From Dokdonella sp. (GTDB taxonomy: Bacteria; Pseudomonadota; Gammaproteobacteria; Xanthomonadales; Rhodanobacteraceae), in contig NZ_JAHCAQ010000001.1 in NCBI RefSeq assembly GCF_019634845.1, positions 186,001 to 250,000 of the forward strand: a DNA stretch of 64,000 nt, written 5' to 3'. Shown here piece after piece: positions 14,000 through 16,078 of this stretch. The notes beneath the pieces were generated by a model that was not told where the DNA came from, made no database searches, and saw only the letters and a list, made by a program, of their open reading frames with translations. The position numbers and the translations under genes are program-made. Every line of letters starts with the position of its first letter. Position 1 is the stretch's first letter.

Positions 14000-14038
14000 T
14001 TGACAGTGGTGGCGATCTGCCACGAAAATGCGCGGCTC
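14000..14038 (+). promoter_or_regulatory. Promoter of the tRNA-Tyr/Gly/Thr-tuf operon
   Basis: TTGACA (14000-14005) and GAAAAT (14024-14029) are 18 bases apart, followed by GCGCGGCTC at 14030-14038. A GC-rich discriminator is typical of stable-RNA promoters under stringent control. The same nine bases follow the S10 -10 element at 16191. Confidence 0.65.
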
Positions 14039-14117
14039 GCTCGACGCGATGGTGTGCGCGCAGGACAGCTGGAGCGAGGAAGGTCGCAGGACAACGACAG
14101 GAACGAAAGAGATTTTC

Positions 14118-14185
14118 GGAGGGATACCCAAGCGGCCAACGGGGGCAGACTGTAAATCTGCTGGCTCACGCCTTCGGTGGTTCGA
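14118..14185 (+). pseudogene. Interrupted tRNA-Tyr copy
   Basis: Identical to the intact tRNA-Tyr from its first base to TTCGA in the T-loop, then broken by about 77 bases starting with a hairpin (CAAGTTCGC/GCGAACTTG, 14186-14208). The next part of the tRNA, ATCCACCTCCCT, reappears at 14263-14274, but the final CCACCA is missing. The acceptor stem and T-arm cannot form normally, so it should not be a working tRNA. Confidence 0.85.
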
Positions 14186-14227
14186 CAAGTTCGCCGGGAG
14201 CGAACTTGAACGCGACGCGAAGCGGCG

Positions 14228-14274
14228 CGGCCCGGAGGGCGAAGGGCAGGAGGCCCGGAGTCATCCACCTCCCT
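14228..14274 (+). repeat. tRNA-Tyr 3'-end repeat unit, copy 1
   Basis: A segment rich in CCCGGAGGG and AGGGCAGGA, ending CCCGGAGTC and followed by 12 bases of the tRNA-Tyr 3' end (14263-14274). It matches the unit at 14440-14492. The layout resembles the rtT repeats of the E. coli tyrT operon, where each unit carries the last 19 bases of tRNA-Tyr. Confidence 0.7.
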
Positions 14275-14341
14275 GGCGATGCGCAGCATCGCAGGCGTGA
14301 GGCGAGCAACAGGACAACGACAGGAACGAAAGAGATTTTCC

Positions 14342-14427
14342 GGAGGGATACCCAAGCGGCCAACGGGGGCAGACTGTAAATCTGCTGGCTCACGCCTTCG
14401 GTGGTTCGAATCCACCTCCCTCCACCA
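14342..14427 (+). tRNA. tRNA-Tyr (GTA)
   Basis: A complete 86-base class II tRNA: acceptor GGAGGGA/TCCCTCC, anticodon GTA in CTGTAAATC, long variable arm, T-arm GGTTCGAATCC, discriminator A and encoded CCA (14425-14427). It is the only intact tyrosine tRNA in the window and is flanked on both sides by pieces of itself. Confidence 0.96.
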
Positions 14428-14439
14428 ATCACCAAGGAC

Positions 14440-14492
14440 ACCCCGGAGGGGCGGAGGGCAGGACGCCCGGAGTCATCCACCTTCCTCCACCA
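14440..14492 (+). repeat. tRNA-Tyr 3'-end repeat unit, copy 2
   Basis: The same unit as 14228-14274 (about 85% alike by eye), here ending with ATCCACCTTCCTCCACCA at 14475-14492, which matches 17 of the last 18 bases of tRNA-Tyr. The copied tRNA end includes CCA and looks like an attachment-site-style duplication. Confidence 0.75.
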
Positions 14493-14546: not shown

Positions 14547-14620
<74 letters not shown>

Positions 14621-14724: not shown

Positions 14725-14800
14725 GCTCACGTAGCTCAGTCGGTAGAGCACCTCCTTGGTAAGGAGGAGGTCACTGGTTCGATTCCAGTCGTGAGCACCA
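14725..14800 (+). tRNA. tRNA-Thr (GGT)
   Basis: A 76-base cloverleaf with acceptor GCTCACG/CGTGAGC, anticodon GGT in CTTGGTAAG, T-arm GGTTCGATTCC and encoded CCA. It lies 87 bases before tuf. Tyr-Gly-Thr-tuf is the tufB-type arrangement of gammaproteobacteria. Confidence 0.95.

Positions 14801-14887: not shown

Positions 14888-16078
<1,191 letters not shown>

Follow-up and report, generated by a model that had tools for sequence, protein, structure and literature searches.

What lies on either side of the tRNA-Tyr gene of this Dokdonella genome, and how did it come to be there? In the window (the whole stretch of 64,000 nucleotides that was analysed), a preliminary description had noted an intact tRNA-Tyr preceded by a copy that is identical through TTCGA, broken there by about 77 bases and resumed for 12 tRNA bases, and followed by a unit whose end carries 17 of the tRNA's last 18 bases, the two inserted pieces being alike. 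The arrangement had been likened to the rtT repeats of E. coli, linked through them to the stringent response, and thought undescribed. We report a comparison of genomes which suggests that the tRNA-linked repeats (TLRs), to which both units are related, may have arisen by precise insertion, with a preference for loops in genes of stable RNAs. The locus is composed as follows.

14000..14029, + strand: sigma-70-like promoter, TTGACA-18-GAAAAT, 5' of both tRNA-Tyr copies, by pattern match only
14118..14185, + strand: extra tRNA-Tyr, first 68 nt, as far as TTCGA in the T-loop, equal to the intact copy
14186..14262, + strand: inserted TLR/RtT-type core of 77 nt, CAAGTT...GGAGTC, from covariance model, boundary fits and fold
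14263..14274, + strand: continuation of the split tRNA-Tyr, 12 nt ATCCACCTCCCT, acceptor end and CCA missing
14275..14341, + strand: spacer whose 3' end repeats the leader 5' of the split copy, from repeat analysis
14342..14427, + strand: intact tRNA-Tyr (GUA), from ARAGORN
14428..14492, + strand: truncated TLR unit, the 3' part of a core plus a copy of the last 18 nt of tRNA-Tyr, from repeats and covariance model
14547..14620, + strand: tRNA-Gly (UCC), from ARAGORN
14725..14800, + strand: tRNA-Thr (GGU), from ARAGORN
14888..16078, + strand: ORF of 396 aa, putative EF-Tu (tuf), which we take it to be from reading its translation by eye

The structural part of the preliminary description was borne out throughout. 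A 73-nt repeat (14113-14185 and 14337-14409, 99% identity) ends at TTCGA, and the tRNA part of the split copy, which begins at 14118, equals the intact tRNA-Tyr exactly over its 68 nt; the break then measures 77 nt, a core with several predicted hairpins, before the 12 tRNA bases follow. The leader is repeated 5' of both tRNA-Tyr copies (60 nt, 80%). Behind the intact gene, 14475-14492 agree with the last 18 nt of tRNA-Tyr at 17 of 18 positions, with one substitution, and the two stretches of insert (14237-14274 and 14449-14486) show 92% similarity; a GGTTCGA box was sought in the truncated unit, 14428-14492, and not found there. The putative promoter at 14000-14029 has 10 of 12 consensus matches, and shuffles gave a mean of 0.0 (sd 0.2). 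An intron-containing tRNA was considered and is rejected because the CCA is lost: removal of the insert leaves no complete tRNA, since only 12 nt follow it and CCACCA is absent.

An assembly artefact confined to this genome is not the explanation, since the split copy is found in relatives and the window's two copies differ to their right. Comparison of tRNA-Tyr loci across relatives finds split copies again in G002, G005, G009 and G014, and in MAGs named Rhodanobacter and Lysobacteraceae. A named collection of 84,980 species, scanned for tRNA-Tyr with GGTTCGAC[AC], yielded 12 records, five of which (L144, L147, L149, L150 and L152) are true split copies, the names being Dokdonella (two), Rhodanobacter, Lysobacterales and Lysobacteraceae; the two samples seem to overlap, with L144 resembling G005, L149 resembling G002 and L152 resembling G014. 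Variants like the one in G009 escape the pattern, and the collection may leave out records of the window's own genome. The split copy of G014 lies directly 3' of a promoter-like sequence, in the position that the intact gene holds in G013 and G015.

To what, then, is the inserted core related? We built a covariance model that spans the core and the 3' end. It rests on 24 tRNA-linked units, all from genomes other than the window's, three of these belonging to the same genus (34 candidates less eight near-duplicates, L019 and L084); four units without a GGTTCGA box, the window's downstream unit included, and one over-long unit had been dropped before the model was built. This model, which includes a generic tRNA-like 3' end, matches the window at 14179-14279 (68.6 bits, E 4.7e-12) and at 14403-14492 (45.2 bits, E 2.9e-7), the next-best match reaching 17.9 bits. 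These E-values, from a model built without the window, place both units beyond chance. The same model gives four units of the E. coli tyrT region 52-61 bits, and the Rfam RtT model also detects related loci 3' of tRNA genes in relatives, with a match in 44 of 61 genomes at E <=10 and above its cut-off in six of the 61. The resemblance to rtT thus stands as kinship at the level of TLRs, but fails at the level of the Rfam family, whose model gives the window 21.9 bits (E 0.73) against a cut-off of 45.

The first description of TLRs dates from 1978; the class (Rudd 1999) includes rrA, rrB, rrF and the tyrT unit, and 22 of them are known at ten loci of E. coli K-12, each with 18-19 bp of the 3' end of the upstream gene (PMC8144298, cited here, like the other papers below, from the parts available to us). 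As of 2021, those parts report no function beyond the work on RrA, RrB and RrF, and state that an early claim of a role for the tyrT-tyrV unit in recovery from starvation was later retracted by its authors (PMC8144298). We reject a role in the stringent response on account of that reported retraction.

Units of this kind are widespread. In the window's own genome the model has 12 matches at E <=10, among them two units 3' of tRNA-Gln(CUG) (E 5.8e-6 and 0.05) and four 5' of tRNA-Ser(CGA) (E 9.1e-5 twice, 0.06 and 0.9), the repeated Ser(CGA) units being evident from the sequence itself. The latter stand as four tandem cores at G000:C21:103793-104332, with three D-loop splits and a first core that has no 5' part of a tRNA. 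When the 44 distinct tRNAs of this genome were each compared with up to 900 nt downstream, a tRNA's own last 18 nt (with <=3 substitutions) recurred behind tRNA-Tyr only; the window's tRNA-Gln(UUG), at 2620-2694, has no copy of its own 3' end behind it, while in the relatives G004 and G005 one and two such units, respectively, lie behind that tRNA. Further afield, matches occur in at least 44 of 61 genomes of relatives (E <=0.01), at least 94 of 274 genomes of the class sample (E <=1e-4) and at least 38 of 200 genomes of the phylum sample, all of them lower bounds from genome scans with stricter filters in which 15-67 candidates were scored per genome.

The loci fetched for context, which are the better matches, hold 170 distinct core contexts. 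Relative to the nearest tRNA, 100 cores lie downstream and 42 upstream on the same strand, so that 142 share the orientation of the RNA gene; two are on the opposite strand, and for 26 the stretch that was fetched contains no tRNA. These nearest-tRNA labels are mechanical, L057, L066, L084 and L130 being credited to the next tRNA and relabelled by hand for the comparison of core identities below. Another 46 loci from class and phylum, all detected by the model with its generic tRNA-like 3' end and one of which (L295) duplicates a relative's locus, hold 63 units: 51 downstream and three upstream on the same strand, one on the opposite strand and eight without a tRNA. Candidates for clean opposite-strand cases did not hold up, L113 and L181 being inverted pairs of cores and the 3' end of L276 reading as that of tRNA-Glu. 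Such back-to-back inverted pairs, with almost no gap, are seen at L113, L181 and L230, in three genomes.

The end of a unit tracks its host gene. A score of at least 16 against the host's own last 18 nt is reached by 55 of 94 first downstream units, and in 61 of 2426 comparisons with the last 18 nt of other isoacceptors; among the downstream units of the class and phylum loci, 45 of 51 end in the last 18 nt of the host tRNA with <=4 substitutions. The fetched loci have units at Ser, Gln, Tyr, Arg, Glu, Asp and Thr tRNAs, and no repeated ends from Leu, Ala, Val or Met tRNAs were seen among the fetched relatives and class loci.

The window's upstream unit had also been taken for an rtT-like repeat. 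Its core is indeed homologous, but instead of following a tRNA gene the unit is itself such a gene, which the core splits in the T-loop. Among the upstream same-strand units, 33 of 45 fit the form tRNA(1..k) + core + tRNA(k+1..), with loops named by reading the tRNA sequences. The split falls in the T-loop in 17 (tRNA-Tyr 10, tRNA-Ser(GGA) six, tRNA-Ser(UGA) one), in the anticodon loop of tRNA-Ser(UGA) in 11 and in the D-loop in four (tRNA-Ser(CGA) three, tRNA-Ser(GCU) one), one split (L242) being doubtful. A first analysis had allowed only cuts after GA; when it was rerun without that condition, GA^A fitted 32 of the 33, as the single best cut in 17 and with a slide of 1-2 nt in 15, and 12 of the 45 upstream units had no left match. 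The core is bounded by a recurring cut, in contexts that include GTTCGA^ATCC, TCTTGA^AAAC, GGTCGA^ATGC and GGCTGA^AGGC; at the sliding cuts one A may have been duplicated at insertion, and the right ends of L236 and of one L205 unit are uncertain. In 31 of the 33 split copies the tRNA resumes for 6-17 nt 3' of the core and then ends, a length sufficient for a large part of the interrupted arm's 3' strand.

With its upstream unit the window offers an example of a kind of split RNA gene that we did not find described in the literature searched. That search covered few subscription journals, and in it no title or start of an abstract described split tRNAs or the GA^A cut rule. The supposition that the arrangement is undescribed is accordingly upheld for the split form within that literature, but not for the downstream kind, which is known as tRNA-linked repeats.

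Displaced pieces of tRNA genes bring integrative islands to mind, and the units might be remnants of miniature tyrosine-recombinase islands at tRNA genes, each of which left an intact tRNA and a displaced fragment. The downstream units bear a 3' fragment and the upstream units a 5' fragment, as in the window, and in Islander's count the displaced piece is a 3' tRNA fragment in 3760 islands and a 5' fragment in 159, the crossovers falling in the anticodon loop, in the T loop or at the junction of T and acceptor stem (PMC4383910). However, the span from intact to displaced tRNA is mostly 140-240 bp in the units inspected (224 bp from start to start for the window's tRNA-Tyr), which is too short for an integrase gene. 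Islands do not predict the extra 6-17 tRNA nucleotides after the core in most split copies, nor do they fit the dispersed repeats described below, in which the core stands alone without a duplicated part of a gene. We hold such an origin to be distinctly improbable.

Stable-RNA genes other than those of tRNAs carry the core as well. In rrnA and rrnB of E. coli K-12 it lies after 5S and T1, with the 3' end of 5S repeated behind it, and 57 of 77 columns match between the window core and the rrnB core; it is absent from rrnE and rrnC, these four being the operons examined among the seven. Two units initially counted among those without a tRNA (L224 and L293) lie 3' of tmRNA and end in a near-copy of the tmRNA 3' end. 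BLAST of the window core also returned 13 plasmid and four phage records; these were rejected as a sign of horizontal mobility, the six of 17 inspected all being rrn terminator regions and some of the plasmids chromosome-sized.

Some of the cores without a tRNA are hosted by a dispersed repeat of G023. When the flanks of the core were joined, the resulting sequence was found 14 times exactly and 47 times within three mismatches, with 0 in the control. In an alignment of eight uninterrupted with four occupied copies, the occupied ones have 73-75 bp inserted between (C/T)GA and A and show no visible target duplication; L128 and L241 deviate beside the right end, and all four occupied copies may be one insertion amplified with its host repeat. 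The repeat that hosts the core here (L304, 1516-1592) resembles Rfam sX9 at 39.2 bits, below the cut-off of 44. A palindromic repeat of G006, cut at GCCGGA^ATCCAG in its two occupied copies, has 37 uninterrupted copies within three mismatches, none of them exact, of which seven read GGAATCC as expected of the occupied sites. Host repeats thus exist in both interrupted and uninterrupted form.

Are the cores of one genome related to each other, or is each tied to its own tRNA gene? We compared 83 genome-isoacceptor entries from 41 genomes, with one core per genome and isoacceptor and a locus-to-genome table compiled by hand. Mean core identity is 0.655 between different tRNAs of the same genome (80 pairs), 0.608 between the same tRNA in different genera (362 pairs) and 0.590 between different tRNAs in different genera (2497 pairs), and both differences were reached in 0 of 1000 permutations. 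The cores of different tRNA genes within one genome are thus alike, most strikingly those of Ser(UGA) and Gln(CUG) in G056 (92%) and of Ser(GCU) and Ser(GGA) in G042 (96%). The nearest core lies at the same tRNA type of another genome for 48 of the 83 entries, so that descent is mostly vertical, and at another tRNA of the same genome for 13.

Such vertical descent is what would be expected had local accidents alone (tandem duplication, slippage and template switching at a tRNA gene) built the array around a core that was merely an old, immobile neighbour. That account also draws on the sequence after the last unit, which at several loci repeats the sequence after the tRNA; on a C/T variant common to the split and intact copies in all six loci that have both; and on an inverted copy of the host T-arm before the core, which scores at least 10 in 51 of 94 units against their own tRNA and in 296 of 2426 comparisons with others. 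Against it, one family of cores is found in T-, D- and anticodon loops and after 5S and tmRNA, cores lie inside unrelated repeats that also exist uninterrupted, and cores are alike across the tRNAs of one genome, all of which leaves local accidents as a very unlikely sole explanation.

The question remains whether the core is kept as RNA or as DNA. An account in terms of RNA would make the units functional modules, co-transcribed with the tRNA or rRNA, excised by the same ribonucleases by way of the repeated 3' end and acting as small RNAs, for instance in titrating CsrA through GGA loops; the split tRNA would be a version headed by the 5' part of a tRNA. The E. coli TLRs RrA, RrB and RrF are processed RNAs that bind Hfq and CsrA, RrB having been found to bind both, although altered levels of rrA, rrB and rrF had only modest effects (PMC8144298). 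For RtT RNA, covariation support and a tandem-GA motif are reported, with one helix unsupported (PMC7657543, PMC8250186). In our own data, the promoter-like site 5' of both tRNA-Tyr copies and the strand bias (142 to 2 among the 170 contexts, 54 to 1 among the 63 further units) are in keeping with transcription as part of an RNA gene. The bias is strong despite a T-loop target, TTCGAA, that is palindromic, and so plain DNA insertion is not enough to explain it.

A core maintained as RNA would be expected to accept G.U in its stems more readily than A.C. Across 157 non-redundant cores, 2422 standard stem pairs are accompanied by 10 internal G.U and 25 A.C, unlike the stems of the tRNA control (13 G.U, 5 A.C); shuffled cores gave 607 standard pairs, 13.7 G.U and 21.4 A.C. 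The numbers are small and the cores scanned on the reverse strand gave 17 G.U to 10 A.C, so that these counts argue only against a clear RNA signature. An earlier stem finder was dropped as uncalibrated, its tRNA control having shown more A.C than G.U, and RNAalifold on the core alignment predicts only 10 pairs, too weak a result to argue from. The split unit does not fold unusually well (z -1.0, with 34 of 200 shuffles doing as well); among 95 first downstream units, 37 are separated from the tRNA by a run of at least five T, so that some may follow a terminator; and the dispersed repeats, interrupted and uninterrupted, also speak against RNA modules. We consider it unlikely, though far from negligible, that the units arose as such modules. 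An RNA role of the cores would be secondary or acquired, and we retain it in that form because of the published covariation, the orientation bias and the binding of CsrA and Hfq by RrB.

We therefore return to insertion, which is itself supported. In our judgement it is somewhat more likely than not that the 77-nt core represents a TLR-type insertion element of minimal size, precise at GA^A, without visible target duplication and mostly directed to the loops of stable-RNA genes, and that a second tRNA copy keeps the cell alive. At the present locus the core would have entered the T-loop of a tRNA-Tyr gene, and the intact tRNA-Tyr would have arisen by duplication together with its leader or been restored by the insertion; we infer that such duplication served as rescue. 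As an intact tRNA-Tyr lies just downstream, the cell keeps a working gene, and the split copy would then have been free to lose its acceptor end and, in some relatives, to be amplified in tandem. The truncated unit behind the intact tRNA would be an eroded TLR of the ordinary type. The core would presumably be copied as DNA and inserted as a folded single strand, the enzyme for this being provided in trans. A Y1 transposase as the mover is not supported, Y1_Tnp (PF01797, E 1e-5) having 0 matches in the window's own genome (G000, a 90%-complete assembly) and none in 13 of 44 core-bearing genomes (Fisher p 0.14). No recent jump of a core was seen in the genomes compared, and no transposase or recombinase for the cores was identified in the genomes searched.

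More tentatively, and with somewhat less than even confidence, we propose that the TLR core represents an unrecognised class of minimal insertion element, occurring in at least about one genome in three of the class sample, which enters the loops of tRNA genes and sites in tmRNA and 5S rRNA genes at GA^A and without target duplication; the repeated ends of RNA genes would then be traces of gene rescue and not processing signals.

How does such an element compare with systems already known? IS200/IS605 derivatives and REP/RAYT elements have no target duplication and no terminal inverted repeats, have hairpins near both ends and recognise a short conserved 5' target. The cores are like them in these features, terminal inverted repeats being judged by eye; they differ in that the window's own genome has no Y1 match and that they mostly target stable-RNA genes. 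With the islands at tRNA genes they share an intact tRNA, a displaced 5' or 3' fragment and sites in the T-loop and anticodon loop (PMC4383910, PMC9897764), but differ in their short spans, in having no integrase and in the insertions of the core alone elsewhere. With Rfam RtT (RF00391) the likeness extends to units of relatives that score up to 60.7 bits, where the E. coli tyrT units score 133-138 bits, whereas the window falls below the cut-off and the rrnB unit (L298) has no match at E 0.01.

The closest comparison is with the TLRs themselves, which lie directly 3' of a tRNA or rRNA gene, end in the last 18-19 nt of that gene and have a homologous core. The unit at 14428-14492 lies directly downstream of its tRNA on the same strand, repeats the 3' end in near-identical form and has a homologous core by its model score, of which it keeps the 3' part only, the 5' part of the model falling on the tRNA. 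The unit at 14118-14274 has a homologous core too but lies upstream, splits the tRNA in the T-loop and carries 12 nt of 3' sequence without CCA in place of a full 3' end. What is new is that the core also interrupts additional tRNA copies of relatives in their D-loops and anticodon loops. The forms in D-loops, in anticodon loops, at tmRNA and standing alone are absent from the account of TLRs in the available parts of PMC8144298. Taken together, the split tRNAs, the shared GA^A cut and the uninterrupted host repeats make the origin of TLRs testable, turn an old and unexplained family of repeats into a testable insertion-element hypothesis, and offer a case of stable-RNA genes that are hit yet kept working through a second copy. 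In many laboratory vectors a TLR core lies between the rrnB T1 and T2 terminators, and our comparison suggests that this stretch of common expression vectors descends from a mobile element.
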